Below the pieces are notes generated by a model. It worked only from the letters and a program-made list of their open reading frames with translations. It was not told the DNA's origin and made no database searches. From NCBI GenBank assembly GCA_023137615.1, contig JAGLOS010000006.1:1-34558 (forward strand): a stretch of 34,558 nucleotides of DNA, written 5' to 3'. Of this stretch, positions 2,970 to 14,176 are shown piece after piece. Positions within the stretch are counted from its first letter, which is position 1. Each line of letters starts with the position of its first letter. The translations under genes were made by a program, and so were the position numbers. Source of the stretch: Minisyncoccota bacterium (GTDB lineage Bacteria; Patescibacteriota; Minisyncoccia; Phycocordibacterales; JAGLOS01).

Positions 2970-3371
2970 ATGAAACGTCTTATCGTGACATATAGCGTTC
3001 ATCCTGATAAACGCCAAGATTTTATAGAAGCATCAGAGAAATTTGTCTCTCAAATAGAAGAGCTGGAATCCGGCATGCTTGAATGTACCACATGCCAAGG
3101 TTGTGATGAAAATTCATTTGTGCATTATCTTTCTTTCAAAGACGATGGTGCCCGGAAAGCCCATGAAAAAGCCCACCATACACAAATTTTCATGACCCTT
3201 ATCAAGAATTTTTGCATGGGAGAAATTACACACATTCCACTTGCGGACAAAGGAGTACCAACAGGCATTACACCAAGTTCACCCGATGAAGAATACCGAC
3301 AGCAACGAGAAGTAGATCTGCATAAAAATCAAGAGGATATTGATAGAATAAAAGGATCGGAAAGTTTATAA
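2970..3371 (+). CDS. Antibiotic biosynthesis monooxygenase (ABM/YgiN-like) domain protein
   Basis: MKRLIVTYSVHPDKRQDFIEASEKF...HYLSFKDDGARKAHEKAHHTQIF pattern typical of ABM ferredoxin-like domains. Confidence 0.65.
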   Translation: MKRLIVTYSVHPDKRQDFIEASEKFVSQIEELESGMLECTTCQGCDENSFVHYLSFKDDGARKAHEKAHHTQIFMTLIKNFCMGEITHIPLADKGVPTGITPSSPDEEYRQQREVDLHKNQEDIDRIKGSESL

Positions 3372-8130: not shown

Positions 8131-8721
8131 TTACTGCCTCAATAAACCAACTCTTTTAAAGATCTCTTCCAATACCTGATTTTTACCTTTCTTGGTCTTT
8201 GCCGAATACATAAAGATATTAACTCCACCTGCTTTTGCGTGTATCTTTTTTAACTGTTTTGTGATCTCTTGTTGTTTTAATTTATCCACTTTATTTGCAA
8301 TAATGTTCACTTCATGCCCATGAGAATGAAGTATTCGAAGCATTTCTTCATCGAGATCAGTAATACCAACCTGCATGTCTATTACAAGCATCACTGATTC
8401 CGGTTTTACCGTTGAATATTGTATATACCACAAAATACGTTTTGCAATTCTATCGCGATCTTTTTTAGACATCTTTGCGTATCCATAACCGGGAAAATCA
8501 ACAAAATAAAACTTGTCGTTAATACGATAAAAATTTGCTTCGCGTGTCTTTCCGGGTGTCGAACTTGACCGCACGAGACTCTTCCTGCCCAAAAGTGAAT
8601 TGATAACACTTGATTTACCCACATTTGATCGCCCCAAAAAAGCAATTTGCGGATATCCATCAGAGATCATATAATCATCTCCTGTTACCCCCTTAACAAA
8701 CTCAGCACTTGCGATATTCAT
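8131..8721 (-). CDS. engB: Ribosome biogenesis GTP-binding protein EngB/YsxC
   Basis: FLGRSNVGKSSVINSLLGRK, SSTPGKTREANFYRI, FVDFPGYGYAK, ANKVDKL motifs. Confidence 0.93.
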   Translation of the reverse strand: MNIASAEFVKGVTGDDYMISDGYPQIAFLGRSNVGKSSVINSLLGRKSLVRSSSTPGKTREANFYRINDKFYFVDFPGYGYAKMSKKDRDRIAKRILWYIQYSTVKPESVMLVIDMQVGITDLDEEMLRILHSHGHEVNIIANKVDKLKQQEITKQLKKIHAKAGGVNIFMYSAKTKKGKNQVLEEIFKRVGLLRQ

Positions 8722-8882: not shown

Positions 8883-9713
8883 ATGGAAGAAAAAAAACAA
8901 AATCTAGGAGTGCCTGTCGCCATTGTCATCGCAGGTATTGCTATTGCCGGAGCAATTATCTATTCAAATAACACAACAGCTGCGAGCAAACTCTCAACAG
9001 ATCATCCGATCGCTGAAAGTTTGGGTCTTGATATAAAAAAGTTCAGTGAATGTGTCGAAAATAAAACATTTGCTGACGAAATAAGCAAACAACACGATCT
9101 TGGCGTGTCACTTGGACTTCAAGGGACACCGCACAGTATCGTCATACTCAAAGACGGAACCGGTTATCGAATAAACGGCGCTTATCCATACAATACGGTA
9201 GCTCTTACGATCGAAGCCGCGCTATCCGGTGTAAGCACAGAAAAAATACAACACTTCTTGGATATGTTCCAAGAACAAGGTATTACCGAAGAAGACATAA
9301 ACTCATACGTCCAAAAGAAGATCATACCAACGATCGAAGCGTATCAAAACGGAGAAGAAGTTGCAAAAACGGAAATCGACAGTGCCTCTATCGTTGAAAG
9401 AAAAGATGAAATACTATCGACAGGACACCTTTTGGGAAACGAAAATGCCGCAGTTACCGTTGTTGAATTCTCAGATATGGAATGTCCGTATTGTCCACGA
9501 TTTCACAGCACAATGGATCAAGTGTATAAAGAATATGAAGAAACAGGAGAGGTTGCATGGAGGTATTCATCTTTCTTCCCATTCGACAGTAATCCTCAAG
9601 CACATCCAAACGCACGAGCACAGGCAGAAGCAGTTGAATGCGCGGCATCTGTCGGTGGTGAAGACATGTTTTGGGCATATATAGAAAAACAGTTTACAGC
9701 AAACGGTCTTTAA
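8883..9713 (+). CDS. DsbA-family thioredoxin-fold protein, membrane anchored, with apparent circular permutation
   Basis: N-terminal TM; LGLDIKKFSECVENKTFADEISKQHDLGVSLGLQGTPHSIVILKDG (C-terminal DsbA half with cis-Pro) precedes NENAAVTVVEFSDMECPYCPRFHSTMDQVY...ECAASVGGEDMFWAYIEKQFTANGL-stop (N-terminal DsbA half). Confidence 0.85.
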   Translation: MEEKKQNLGVPVAIVIAGIAIAGAIIYSNNTTAASKLSTDHPIAESLGLDIKKFSECVENKTFADEISKQHDLGVSLGLQGTPHSIVILKDGTGYRINGAYPYNTVALTIEAALSGVSTEKIQHFLDMFQEQGITEEDINSYVQKKIIPTIEAYQNGEEVAKTEIDSASIVERKDEILSTGHLLGNENAAVTVVEFSDMECPYCPRFHSTMDQVYKEYEETGEVAWRYSSFFPFDSNPQAHPNARAQAEAVECAASVGGEDMFWAYIEKQFTANGL

Positions 9714-9801: not shown

Positions 9802-9833
9802 AAACATCTACGTAGATATCTACGTAGATGTTT
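9802..9833. repeat. 32-bp perfect palindrome (two tandem copies of the palindrome ATCTACGTAGAT)
   Basis: AAACATCTACGTAGAT|ATCTACGTAGATGTTT between convergent genes. Confidence 0.9.
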
Positions 9834-9854: not shown

Positions 9855-10151
9855 TCATATACCAAGAATCGCCCGAAGCTCGTCAGACGGTTTCCATGGG
9901 GGCTCAAAGGTTAGTTCAACACGAACCTTTTGCTCTTTTGCATCTTCAAGCAATGCGCCGACTGAATCTTCAACCTTTTTAATAAGCTGATCCGCAAACG
10001 GACAAAATGGTGTAGTGAGTGTCATTGTGACCTCTACTCCACCACCATCGATCTTGATATCGTAGATCAATCCGAGTGTCCACAGGTCAAGACCGACTTC
10101 CGGGTCTTTTACTTCTTTTATTTTTTCAATGACTTTTTCTTTTGTGATCAT
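9855..10151 (-). CDS. MIP18/DUF59 family (SufT-like) Fe-S assembly protein
   Basis: MITKEKVIEKIKEVKDPEVGLDLWTLGLIYDIKI...TLTTPFCPFADQLIKKVEDSV; start moved to 10151 because the longer ORF overlaps sufC. Confidence 0.85.
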   Translation of the reverse strand: MITKEKVIEKIKEVKDPEVGLDLWTLGLIYDIKIDGGGVEVTMTLTTPFCPFADQLIKKVEDSVGALLEDAKEQKVRVELTFEPPWKPSDELRAILGI

Positions 10152-10167
10152 AAAAATGGAGTAAGTT

Positions 10168-10902
10168 TTAATCGACAAACGACCCAAAGCCATGTTCTGT
10201 AATTTCCGCGACAAGTTCTTTGCCACCCGACCGTATCAAAACGCCATCTTTCATAACATGAACAAAGTCAGGTGTAATATGATCCAAGATCGTATTATAA
10301 TGAGTGATAAGCAAAAAAGCGGTACCCTGTTTTTGTAAAATAGACAATGCTTTAAATACTTTTCGAAGTGAATCAATGTCAACACCTGAATCTATCTCGT
10401 CGAGAAAAGCAAATTTTGGTTCAAGGACAGCAAGTTGCAATACTTCTGAAAGCTTCTTTTCTCCACCCGAAAGTCCCACGTTTACATGTCTGTTTAGAAA
10501 ATCGGGATCAATATCCAACTCTTCCGCTTTTTTCTTTAAAAGCTCGTAGAAATCAACAACCGATATGTCGGGGTCATTCAACGAACGATACGACTTATGT
10601 AAAAAAGATACCAGTGTAACACCCGGTATTTCAGGTAAATATTGCATTGATAAAAATAATCCTTTTTGAGCTTTTTTCTCTGTCGCCATATCTGTAATAT
10701 TTTTCCCATCCAGTATTATTTCCCCGTTTGTTATCGTATATTTTGGATGACCCATAATAGCGTTTACAAATGTGCTCTTGCCGGAACCATTAGGACCCAT
10801 AACAACGTGAATCGATCCACTCTCAATTTCCATTGAGATATCATTCACCACATTTTTTGATTCGGTTTGTATTGAAATGTTCTTTATTTCTAATTTAGAC
10901 AT
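10168..10902 (-). CDS. sufC: Fe-S cluster assembly ATPase SufC
   Basis: MGPNGSGKSTFVNAIMGHPKY, GLSGGEKKLSEVLQLAVLEPKFAFLDEIDSGVDIDSL. Confidence 0.95.
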   Translation of the reverse strand: MSKLEIKNISIQTESKNVVNDISMEIESGSIHVVMGPNGSGKSTFVNAIMGHPKYTITNGEIILDGKNITDMATEKKAQKGLFLSMQYLPEIPGVTLVSFLHKSYRSLNDPDISVVDFYELLKKKAEELDIDPDFLNRHVNVGLSGGEKKLSEVLQLAVLEPKFAFLDEIDSGVDIDSLRKVFKALSILQKQGTAFLLITHYNTILDHITPDFVHVMKDGVLIRSGGKELVAEITEHGFGSFVD

Positions 10903-10913
10903 CGTTTTTGCAT

Positions 10914-11300
10914 TTAGTGGTCTAATAATTTTTCATAATTTTTAATTGCAGTACAAAGTGTTCCATAAGCAAGTAAAGCACATTTAGTACGCCCCGGGCT
11001 TATGGTAATACCCAGCATGGTATAAATATCTCCCGGTGTTAACAATTTTATATTTTCAACACTCATTCCTTTCACTTTGTCAGTAAGCATCGATGCGGCC
11101 GCTTGTGATATTGCACACCCGTCTCCTTCAAAAGACACATCTTCAACAACACCATTTCCAATATTGAGATACAGAACCAGACTGTCTCCGCAACTAACAT
11201 TCTTTCCATCCTGCTTTATTGAACAAGGTGAGAAAATTCCTTTATTGTGAGGGTGCTTGTAGTGGTCCAATATATTCTGTTTATATATCTCTTCATCCAT
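10914..11300 (-). CDS. sufU: Fe-S scaffold SufU/IscU-like
   Basis: ILDHYKHPHNKGIF...SCGDSLVLYL...FEGDGCAISQAAASMLTDKVKG...RTKCALLAYGTL: conserved Cys positions of the scaffold. Confidence 0.9.
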   Translation of the reverse strand: MDEEIYKQNILDHYKHPHNKGIFSPCSIKQDGKNVSCGDSLVLYLNIGNGVVEDVSFEGDGCAISQAAASMLTDKVKGMSVENIKLLTPGDIYTMLGITISPGRTKCALLAYGTLCTAIKNYEKLLDH

Positions 11301-11344
11301 AATTCTTTCAATAATACATGTATATGATCGTTTTTCAAATATTA

Positions 11345-11375
11345 AAGGTCCGGATATTCCGGACCTTGTGTTTTT
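11345..11375. terminator. Intrinsic terminator-like hairpin
   Basis: AAGGTCCGGA-TA-TTCCGGACCTT followed by a T-rich stretch on +; located between the small ORF stop and sufU. Confidence 0.65.
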
Positions 11376-11384
11376 ATAAAAATT

Positions 11385-11594
11385 TTATTTTTTAGCAAAA
11401 TTTTTCAGCTTTGCTATTTTTTCCTCTTTTCTTTTTTCTCTCATTTCATTCTTTTCTTCTTTTTCTTTCTTCTTTTTATTTTTAGAGAAAGGAATCTTTT
11501 CTCTTTTTCGGCTTCTTCCTTGGTATCTTCTTCGAGAAATTCGAGAAGTTTTAATCTTTTGATTTAAAATAAAAGAACATTCTATTTCTACCAT
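11385..11594 (-). CDS. Small Lys/Arg-rich hypothetical protein (69 aa from internal Met)
   Basis: MVEIECSFILNQKIKTSRISRRRYQGRSRKREKIPFSKNKKKKEKEEKNEMREKRKEEKIAKLKNFAKK; start 11594 preferred because the longer ORF start (11645) lies upstream of a hairpin. Confidence 0.4.
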   Translation of the reverse strand: MVEIECSFILNQKIKTSRISRRRYQGRSRKREKIPFSKNKKKKEKEEKNEMREKRKEEKIAKLKNFAKK

Positions 11595-11606
11595 ATATAT
11601 AAAAAT

Positions 11607-11641
11607 AACGGGTCGTGAGCCCGTTTTAAATAATAAAACGG
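11607..11641 (-). promoter_or_regulatory. Overlapping antiterminator/terminator-like hairpins
   Basis: On minus: CCGTTTTA-ttatt-TAAAACGG overlaps AACGGG-ctcacga-CCCGTT followed by ATTTTTAT. Confidence 0.5.
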
Positions 11642-11683
11642 ACACTCCACGTCATATGTATTCATATGTAGTGACCAAAGAAA

Positions 11684-11711
11684 ACTATACTCTTTTTGAA
11701 AGATATGTCAA
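11684..11711 (-). promoter_or_regulatory. Sigma70-type promoter
   Basis: Minus strand TTGACA-16 nt-TATAGT. Confidence 0.55.
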
Positions 11712-11766
11712 TACCACACTGAATATTTAGCGTCCCAAACCCCCTTTCAGCTCATTTTTGTAACAT

Positions 11767-12984
11767 TTATTTAAAGGTCTTGACCGCCTTTTGCAATGAC
11801 AAGATCAAACGATCCACATCATTTTTTGTATTATAAAAATACAAACTCATTCGTGCCGTCGCAGATAAACCCAATTCCTCAATAAGCGGCATCGCGCAAT
11901 GATGTCCTGCCCGTATTGCGACATTATTTTGTCCGGCTATTTGAGCAATATCATGGGGATGTATCCCGTCGATCGTAAATGAAACAATTCCGGTATTCTT
12001 TCGGACATCTGCCTCTACATACACAGTAAGTCCTTCTATTTTTTTCAACTCTTGCATTGCGTATTCTACAAGATCAGCAACGATACTATGTATTGCTTTC
12101 GTACCTCCGATATCCTCAAGATATGTAACGGCGGCGGCAAGTCCGATCACACCCGCTATATTTGACGTACCTGCCTCAAATCGAGAAATATCATCTGCCC
12201 ATGTCGCCCTATCTTTTTCCACAACATCTATCATGCTACCACCGAAGAATCCGGGATAAAGAGAATTTAATCGTTCTTTTTTCCCATATAAAACTCCAAT
12301 ACCTGTTGGACCACATATCTTATGTCCGGAGAAATAAAGAAAATCAACACCCAAATGGTGCACATCGACCGGAATATGCCCAACCGCAGCCGTCGCATCC
12401 GAAATAACGATCGCTCCAACTTTATGTCCCAATGCCACTATTTTCGAAATATCATGAATTGTTCCCAAAACATTGCTCGCAAGCATTACAGAAACGATCT
12501 TGGTCCTCTCTGTGATCAACTCTGCCGCCTTGTTATAGTCCAGTTCAAAATTATTTGCCAATGGAATATATTTCATCACAAGTTTTTTTCTTCGTGCAAA
12601 TTCCTGCAAAGGAACAATTGACGCATGATGTTCCGTAATACTTATCACGATCTCATCTCCCTCTTGCAGATCAAATGTATTCTCAAGAGCATAGACAAGC
12701 ATATTTGAAGAAGCTGTCGCACCTGCCGTAAAAATGACCTCGTCTGTACCCGCATGTATAAATTCCGCGACCCTCTCCCGTGCTTTTTCGTATTCTTGTG
12801 TTGCTTTTTCCGCTACAGGATATAACCCACGATGGATACTGGCGCGGTAGTTTGTATAATAATCTGAAATAGCATCGATCACACTCTGTGGCGTTTGAGA
12901 AGTTGCCGCCGTATCAAGATACGCAAATGTATTATCTTTCAGTACCGGAAAATCTTTTTTGATATGTTCAAACGTATTATGCAT
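11767..12984 (-). CDS. sufS: Cysteine desulfurase SufS
   Basis: YLDTAATSQTP, TEHHASIVPLQEFARR, DATAAVGHIPVDV, FLYFSGHKICGPTGIGVLYGK (PLP Lys), RAGHHCAMP. Confidence 0.95.
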   Translation of the reverse strand: MHNTFEHIKKDFPVLKDNTFAYLDTAATSQTPQSVIDAISDYYTNYRASIHRGLYPVAEKATQEYEKARERVAEFIHAGTDEVIFTAGATASSNMLVYALENTFDLQEGDEIVISITEHHASIVPLQEFARRKKLVMKYIPLANNFELDYNKAAELITERTKIVSVMLASNVLGTIHDISKIVALGHKVGAIVISDATAAVGHIPVDVHHLGVDFLYFSGHKICGPTGIGVLYGKKERLNSLYPGFFGGSMIDVVEKDRATWADDISRFEAGTSNIAGVIGLAAAVTYLEDIGGTKAIHSIVADLVEYAMQELKKIEGLTVYVEADVRKNTGIVSFTIDGIHPHDIAQIAGQNNVAIRAGHHCAMPLIEELGLSATARMSLYFYNTKNDVDRLILSLQKAVKTFK

Positions 12985-12985
12985 G

Positions 12986-14176
12986 TTATCTAAAATTTAT
13001 TGTGCTCACCTTCTTATATATAATATCCCGAAGAAATTCTTTTTCTTTTTTTTCAATTATACTCTCTAACCCGGAGCACAACATTCCCTCAACGATCATC
13101 TTGCCGGACTTGAGTTTGTCAAGACCACGCAGTTGAGGATAATACAGATCGCTATCTTTGAGAAAACTTACAGAAACACTATGCGAACAAGAGACACTCT
13201 TTTGGGAAATGTCCAAAGAAGGGATCACGTCAACCTCTGCCTCTTTTGACAACACAAGAAATCGAGCATTTTGTTCTCCTGTGATATTTTCTATGCCTTT
13301 TTTCTTCATAAAGATGTTACTTCTATATATCGTCTTGCCCTTATCGGATGCGACACCGACAGCTTGTATCAATGAATTCGTCCTCGATGAAAAATGATGC
13401 GTTGTATTATAGATATCGACAATACTTTTACCTGCGGAAATAGATATATTCTGTGTTTGTGATGACGCGTCTTCCCCTTCCAAAAAATGCTCTGCGATCG
13501 TTTTTACTATACCACCGGACAATGATTGAATACCTGTATATGAAAGTTCACCATCTTTTTGGACAAAGCTCATCAAATTTGAATGCAGAACTCCACTACC
13601 CGAGCACACTTGCGTGTATTGGATCTTTGCTTTTTCTTTTACGATCACAATAACGGTTCTTCCCGCAATTTGTGTCGAGAGATCAATATCATCCAACACC
13701 GAAAGAGTTGCCCCTTCTTCAACCACAATACACAACAAATCTCTGGCGCTGTTTTTAAAAATAGTTTTCAAAGAAACACTCCCCACCACGCCAGAGGGAC
13801 ACACCACCACCTCTCCTTCGCTAAACAAAGCCATATTAAGCACTGAATATACATCCGCCGTTTGTCGTGCTCCTAAAACTTTTTGCAACGCATTGGAAAC
13901 CTCTTTTGAAAGCTCCGGATCATTTACCGCATCTTCCCATGGAAGTACGCGAATCTCTTTTTCTTTTTGAACTTCATATATGATCGAGTCTTTATTGTCA
14001 TCGTGTCTTTTAATAGAAAAAACCTTTCCATCATATCCTATCGCCAAACCATATGACAATCTACTTTTGTTCTGATCAATATTTTGGAAAAATTCTTTCC
14101 GTATATCAAAAAAATTCTTGGATTCACCAAGTTTTTGAGAAATATCTTGTGCTTCTTTTTTCAGATCTTCATTCAT
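12986..14176 (-). CDS. sufD: SufD-like Fe-S assembly protein (SufBD family, divergent)
   Basis: 396 aa, adjacent to sufS; IYNTTHHFSSRTNSLIQAVGVASDKGKTIYRSNIFMKKKGIENITGEQNARFLVLSKEAEVDVIPSLDI resembles the SufD C-terminal core. Confidence 0.85.
   Translation of the reverse strand: MNEDLKKEAQDISQKLGESKNFFDIRKEFFQNIDQNKSRLSYGLAIGYDGKVFSIKRHDDNKDSIIYEVQKEKEIRVLPWEDAVNDPELSKEVSNALQKVLGARQTADVYSVLNMALFSEGEVVVCPSGVVGSVSLKTIFKNSARDLLCIVVEEGATLSVLDDIDLSTQIAGRTVIVIVKEKAKIQYTQVCSGSGVLHSNLMSFVQKDGELSYTGIQSLSGGIVKTIAEHFLEGEDASSQTQNISISAGKSIVDIYNTTHHFSSRTNSLIQAVGVASDKGKTIYRSNIFMKKKGIENITGEQNARFLVLSKEAEVDVIPSLDISQKSVSCSHSVSVSFLKDSDLYYPQLRGLDKLKSGKMIVEGMLCSGLESIIEKKEKEFLRDIIYKKVSTINFR

Follow-up and report, generated by a model that had tools for sequence, protein, structure and literature searches.

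In canonical DsbA, the half of the chain that carries the CxxC active site comes first and the half that carries the cis-proline comes second. An initial annotation of a 34,558-nt contig of a Minisyncoccota bacterium (hereafter the window, meaning this whole stretch of DNA) proposed that the open reading frame at positions 8883–9713 encodes a DsbA-family protein with these two halves in the opposite order. This raises the question of whether the frame represents a circular permutation of the fold or an accident of assembly or decay, and how widely and how often such a permutation has arisen.

Order of the two halves

The frame was recovered at exactly these coordinates (8883..9713, + strand) and specifies a protein of 276 amino acids composed of an anchor, a B half, a linker and an A half, where A designates the CxxC half of DsbA and B its cis-Pro half. 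The membrane anchor (aa 8–30, LGVPVAIVIAGIAIAGAIIYSNN; 8904..8972, +) was delimited by blastp of aa 1–35 against canonical N-termini. Its motif is that of the canonical CPR DsbA anchor, and it is collinear with the anchor of the canonical genes of loci L058 and L025. The B half (aa 38–115; 8994..9227, +) is the C-terminal part of canonical DsbA, with helices, cis-Pro83, strands and the last helix, and was defined by Pfam DSBA positions 126–188, by positions 96–180 of the canonical model and by tblastx to L058. It contains the helical-domain cysteine Cys57 (9051..9053, +), present in 22/22 permuted and 116/123 canonical rows, and the cis-Pro83 of the GTP motif (9129..9131, +), which is invariant in both sets (22/22 and 123/123). 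The linker (aa 116–180; 9228..9422, +) leads from the old C-terminus to the old N-terminus and had no relatives detectable with phmmer or Pfam. The A half (aa 181–276; 9423..9710, +), which is N-terminal in canonical DsbA, was delimited by Pfam Thioredoxin_4 positions 4–87 and by tblastx to L058. Residue alignment placed in it the CPYC active site (Cys201 and Cys204; 9483..9494, +) and the helical-domain cysteine Cys253 (9639..9641, +), the expected partner of Cys57; residues 57, 201, 204 and 253 are the four cysteines of the protein. The A half ends with FTANGL, at the point where the canonical chain continues into the B half. The initial annotation had located this stop (NGL), CPYC at aa 201–204 and the cis-Pro at aa 83 correctly.

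Pfam DSBA matched with its positions 126–188, the end of the family, at aa 41–108 (E = 4e-12; 46.8 bits, cut-off 25.6), and Thioredoxin_4 matched with its positions 4–87 of 165, the start of the family, at aa 180–271 (E = 6e-17; 62.9 bits, cut-off 23.2). Since the end of DSBA precedes the start of Thioredoxin_4 in the chain, the order of the halves is reversed. Indeed, solved DsbAs (BdbD 3eu3, 4pwp, 4n30) aligned to the window protein as two pieces in reversed order. When the profile of the relatives was rotated to B+A, a single-domain match to the window protein resulted (221.8 bits), whereas canonical relatives matched it as two domains in reverse order. The protein shares with the DsbA family a thioredoxin domain with a helical insertion, a CxxC that opens the active-site helix and a GTP cis-Pro loop; its CxxC half does not precede its cis-Pro half, and it is therefore a variant of the family. 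Both segments are homologous to one and the same relative, are swapped and jointly cover the fold. Judged from these alignments, the frame encodes a circularly permuted DsbA, which upholds the reversal first proposed. Its product is, in all likelihood, a membrane-anchored, extracytoplasmic DsbA-family thiol-disulfide oxidoreductase that was circularly permuted at the gene level, as both the sequence and the predicted fold suggest.

Predicted fold and an engineered counterpart

An AF2 model was built from separate, unpaired alignments of the A and B fragments. The mean pLDDT was 79.5 and the pTM 0.71, compared with a pTM of 0.75 for the canonical L058 protein used as a control. Most of both halves reached 83–97 and low values were found in the anchor (below 50, likewise in the control) and in the linker, for which helices were predicted at 119–131 and 136–155 (about 60–73). 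The active-site helix (204–219) has CPYC (201–204) at its start. In the canonical protein, the secondary-structure elements form two blocks, E E H E H H followed by H H H E E H; the permuted model shows the second of these ahead of the linker helices and the first after them. Two halves that fail to assemble, the outcome that the initial annotation had held against its own proposal, were not seen in this model.

We searched the PDB with both models using Foldseek, a sequential aligner. The canonical model yielded 184 matches at E <= 0.001, the best of which were Wolbachia alpha-DsbA1 (3f4r/3f4t), Pseudomonas DsbA2 (4n30) and Bacillus subtilis BdbD (3eu3), over about 190 columns; the permuted model yielded no match in the PDB at this threshold. 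These three closest solved folds of the control are unpermuted and individually cover only about half of the permuted model, and the ordinary DsbAs that top the list for the permuted model align over about 90–120 columns. Ranked second for the permuted model was 1un2 (243 columns, TMt 0.54, rmsd 6.7), the engineered E. coli cpDsbA_Q100T99; no other solved structure matched the permuted model over its whole length. A sequence search for PDB chains across the new junction gave no match.

Engineered permutants of DsbA have been described: random permutation is attributed to Hennecke, Sebbel and Glockshuber (1999) in a passage of PMC3281007, and such permutants also appear in PMC2395249. The engineered 1un2 resembles the natural permuted proteins in its fold family, in having the second half first and in being cut inside the natural cut loop. 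In contrast, it is soluble and was made in the laboratory, whereas the natural form is anchored, has evolved, and replaces or accompanies canonical dsbA in many lineages.

The natural cut falls in the loop of the helical domain that connects the FWxY and IAxxLGLD helices. The E. coli T99/Q100 cut maps to about positions 96–97 of the canonical profile, inside the loop (90–107) that holds most natural cuts; the cut of L039 lies one helix later. This mapping used what we take to be the E. coli DsbA sequence, which was checked by the positions of C30–C33 and T99–Q100. A proline of the cut loop is present in 102/123 canonical rows and in 0/22 permuted rows. Nature has thus cut the protein in a loop that the engineers of E. 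coli DsbA found tolerant, which ties the tolerance to permutation seen in the laboratory to evolution. With the engineered precedent added to the model, the integrity of the permuted fold is well supported, and the two halves are predicted to make one DsbA fold jointly, in agreement with the earlier expectation.

Alternatively, the B half of one chain might complete the A half of another in a domain-swapped dimer. The linker of the window protein is long (65 aa) and predicted to be helical, and some related DsbA-like proteins, such as ScsC and DsbC, are oligomers. However, linkers are short in most of the other permuted proteins (bridge spans of about 85–125 aa), the AF2 monomer folds on its own at the pTM given above, and the engineered permutant with a similar cut was deposited in the PDB under a title that includes "Preserved Global Fold". 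We therefore consider such a dimer very unlikely.

Distribution across Patescibacteria

With the protein as query, a relative was found in 372/397 genomes of the order, and the best ones matched the A half only. All 29 relatives retrieved, 27 of which were aligned in full, were organized as anchor-A-B. A locus search with the permuted protein as query returned no related loci. We then used a profile spanning the junction, made of the end of B and the start of A. The first such profile identified six further full-length matches in 384 genomes of the class, all of them anchor-B-linker-A in one ORF. An improved profile was calibrated on known proteins (permuted at 114 bits or more, canonical at 86 bits or less) and detected a permuted, stop-free DsbA in 15/397 genomes of the order (12/179 genera) and in 12/380 genomes sampled over the phylum (11/314 genera).

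This brings the total to 22 permuted proteins from 21 genomes. All are single stop-free ORFs with the order anchor-B-linker-A, and each was confirmed as a single permuted domain by the rotated profile. An oddity unique to this MAG was therefore rejected, as the junction-spanning searches found the same form in other genomes. The initial annotation, which knew of no permuted DsbA in CPR, underestimated the finding: the form is widespread and, as discussed below, likely recurrent. The literature searched, which lay mostly outside subscription journals, yielded no account of a naturally permuted DsbA, in CPR or elsewhere.

Some plasmid matches seemed collinear with the permuted query, and these were IncA/C DsbAs that proved canonical when checked. 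These IncA/C DsbA-family proteins (L198 744–1607, L199 768–1628) are near the Patescibacterial type, and their A half is preceded by a long helical stalk. Among phages, one partial match to the permuted query was found.

Permuted and canonical genes at the same locus

The permuted gene is flanked by a divergent engB/ysxC GTPase gene (8131..8721, −), a synteny marker that adjoins canonical dsbA in relatives, and by convergent Fe-S assembly genes (9855..14176, −) that form the conserved downstream flank of dsbA in relatives. The latter encode, in this order, FeS_assembly_P, a SufC-like ABC ATPase, a NifU_N/IscU-like protein, a SufS-like class-V aminotransferase and a SufB/D core protein. A locus from Candidatus Yonathbacteria (L058, MHUS01000002.1) presents the identical gene order engB/dsbA/FeS_assembly_P/sufC/iscU/sufS with a canonical dsbA. 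Using tblastx, we matched engB (8721–8149 in the window to 2346–1774 in L058), the anchor (8892–8969 to 2540–2617), B (9009–9224 to 2996–3211), A (9431–9694 to 2695–2946) and FeS_assembly_P (10148–9855 to 3568–3287), followed by sufC, iscU and sufS. The flanks are collinear on both sides and the sole swap is that of A and B. The same arrangement was found in L025, also with a canonical dsbA, as far as that locus reaches (engB to sufC), and L005, L022, L013 and L017 have parts of the engB-dsbA-suf locus in common with the window. After rotation, the window protein is 52% identical to the nearest canonical row. The permuted gene thus occupies the locus at which relatives keep canonical dsbA.

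A mis-joining of a canonical gene during assembly or binning deserves consideration, since the window comes from a 45-contig draft genome and the other member of the genus that was compared (G001) lacks the gene: no dsbA relative was found in G001, where engB is present with different neighbours, and its dsbA may have been lost, moved or fallen into an assembly gap. However, the reading frame runs intact across both junctions and the 65-aa linker, both flanks are collinear with canonical loci, and 20 other genomes carry the same architecture as single stop-free ORFs. The assembly error that the initial annotation had named as a danger is refuted as a general explanation and is hardly credible for the window itself.

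Between the convergent dsbA and FeS_assembly_P genes, at 9802–9833, lies a perfect 16-nt inverted repeat without a spacer (AAACATCTACGTAGAT/ATCTACGTAGATGTTT), which is perhaps a two-way terminator.

Both forms were also found to share other loci. The dsbA gene that adjoins engB is permuted in G266 and canonical in L013, L012 and L027, of the same coded family. At a glycosyltransferase-2 (GT2) locus, it is permuted in six genomes (G247, G186, G145, G315, G088 and G274) and canonical in L102, L120 and L087, and at a third locus it is permuted in G028 and G011 and canonical in many others. The closest canonical/permuted pair, L120 and G315, shares the GT2 locus and is 68% identical after rotation; here blastn itself shows the anchor, A and B in swapped order. 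In this pair, the old anchor-A linker was divided: its front part remained attached to the anchor, and its rear part moved with A. The swapped units therefore are the linker end plus A on one side, and B on the other. Canonical Patescibacterial DsbAs (L058, L025, L120) resemble the permuted proteins in their orthologous locus, anchor motif, CPFC/CPYC, cis-Pro and helical cysteine pair; they differ in the order anchor-A-B and in the proline of the A-B loop, which is never found in the permuted form. With both forms at the same loci, down to the 68% pair, the process is open to study near the event.

The GT2 locus (L181 1485–2168, L182, L184, L187, L192) also encodes, next to the permuted or canonical dsbA, a conserved protein of about 225 aa. 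It contains a single membrane segment and, at its C-terminus, a thioredoxin-like CxxC region (e.g., TDCTDC), and no Pfam match was found for it.

Number of origins

Most circular permutations known from nature are single, old events that separate distant proteins. We built a tree from the permuted proteins, rotated back, and 84 canonical proteins, with the cut loop excluded. Permuted and canonical forms interleave on this tree: the permuted label needs 16 changes, of which at least six are forced by branches with SH-aLRT >=95. Forcing all permuted rows into one clade gave a delta lnL of 136 and an AU p of 0.005 on the joined alignment. When the halves were tested singly, one origin was not rejected (p = 0.165 each, on few columns). 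The single halves are too short to decide, and the number of origins was therefore judged from the joined alignment and from synteny.

A single ancient permutation that spread as a vertical and transferred lineage would make the canonical neighbours at the same loci replacements or reversions. This would agree with a cut loop that is nearly identical in all cases, with permuted rows that cluster more than shuffled labels, with the single-half trees, which do not reject one clade, and with two clades composed of permuted forms only (L034/L124/L131 and L037/L041/L136). It is, however, unlikely: the joined alignment rejects a single clade, and several permuted proteins are nearest to the canonical proteins of their own lineage, in some cases at the same locus (L038–L120, 68%; L134–L013; L129–L010, 61%). 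Gene conversion between paralogues could mimic some of the switches, and we regard a single origin with reversions or gene conversion as less likely than recurrence. These comparisons suggest that the permutation is likely recurrent in Patescibacteria.

Putative route to the permutation

The pattern fits the tandem duplication followed by trimming that the initial annotation proposed. The part of the gene that codes for the domain, without the anchor, may have been duplicated in tandem, and the subsequent loss of the first A half and the last B half would leave a frame of the form anchor-B-A. The product would refold to the normal DsbA fold, with the CPYC of A beside the cis-Pro of B, and a Cys57–Cys253 disulfide would staple the halves together covalently. 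Its chemistry would be the same as that of ordinary DsbA. The anchor should, however, enter at the helical cap and not at the first strand, so that the active site would be turned relative to the membrane; any advantage of the permutation may lie in this re-tethering.

Among the homologues by which the initial annotation had proposed to check its reading, those with the same order and those without permutation were both found, and tandem or partly trimmed intermediates were not found among the ORFs of the fetched loci, a limited sample. Because no such intermediate was found, the duplication route is a putative one. A 465-aa frame in L004 that seemed to be a tandem fusion proved to be a canonical gene whose frame merely stays open far upstream. 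Downstream of the stop codon of the window gene, we found no convincing repeat of a decayed second B half, and a 24-nt direct repeat (71%; 8968–8991 and 9681–9704) is too weak to interpret.

PMC3091736 mentions permutations within the Trx-like fold. Permutation by duplication is known from saposin/swaposin and from DNA methyltransferases, and according to a review of the general models (PMC3320104) intermediates are well documented for the methyltransferases. The likely route is the same in these cases and here, namely a tandem repeat followed by a new start and a new stop. The permuted DsbAs differ in that the anchor stays in front and the swap is internal to the gene, in that they lie at orthologous loci in many lineages, and in that no intermediate was found.

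The permutation also matters for annotation: tools that depend on the order of the halves split or misname permuted DsbAs, and the sequential structure search above yielded no match at E <= 0.001.

Conserved cysteines and candidate partners

The residues expected for function are largely conserved in the permuted proteins. The first active-site cysteine is present in 22/22 and the second in 21/22, and the helical cysteine pair, with one cysteine per half (Cys57 in B, Cys253 in A), and the cis-Pro are present in all 22. Pseudomonas DsbA2 likewise has a cysteine at both positions matching Cys57 and Cys253 in the alignment. A C97A/C146A mutant of alpha-DsbA1 is reportedly found in the PDB, which fits a second disulfide.

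Two active sites depart from the usual sequence. The permuted DsbA of L131 (G115:C41, about 67.2–67.7 kb) has CPFS in place of CxxC and is a natural monothiol variant, and that of L135 (G121:C14, about 54.7–55.3 kb) has CGFC and not CPFC or CPYC.

The end branches of the permuted proteins are longer than those of the canonical proteins (median 0.65 vs 0.42, p = 0.008), which could reflect relaxed constraint. Together with the CPFS of L131, this might be taken to indicate that the permuted gene is a decaying, non-functional relic of a dsbA duplication that remains open by chance. We find this extremely unlikely, as the window protein and 21/22 permuted proteins retain all four cysteines and the cis-Pro, the permuted form is retained in many lineages, and in 14/21 genomes it is the sole Thioredoxin_4 match. 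Because it is the sole match in these genomes, the permuted protein probably carries the DsbA role where it stands alone. The disulfide pathways of Patescibacteria are poorly known, and many of these genomes apparently depend on no DsbA other than the permuted one.

VKOR (PF07884) was not found in the genome of the window (G000). A match above the cut-off was found in 2/14 genomes with the permuted form only, in 4/7 mixed genomes and in 22/44 genomes without the permuted form; the first and last of these proportions differ with p = 0.028 when kinship is ignored. We lean towards the view that the same circular permutant of DsbA has arisen again and again, independently, at the native dsbA locus of Patescibacteria, with at least six switches. 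The permutation would then be a recurrent and selectable form of membrane re-tethering, perhaps tied to a VKOR-independent redox route.

In G954 (C1, 11123–12792; L141, L145, L196), a permuted DsbA, a canonical DsbA and a VKOR adjoin one another on one strand, a trio that suggests divided roles in one pathway. Finally, the gene directly downstream of the permuted DsbA in G278 (L189, 2761–3312) encodes a conserved membrane protein (about 184 aa) that contains a CAAC motif. It has no Pfam match, genes for its relatives immediately follow many canonical dsbA genes, and it is a possible redox partner.
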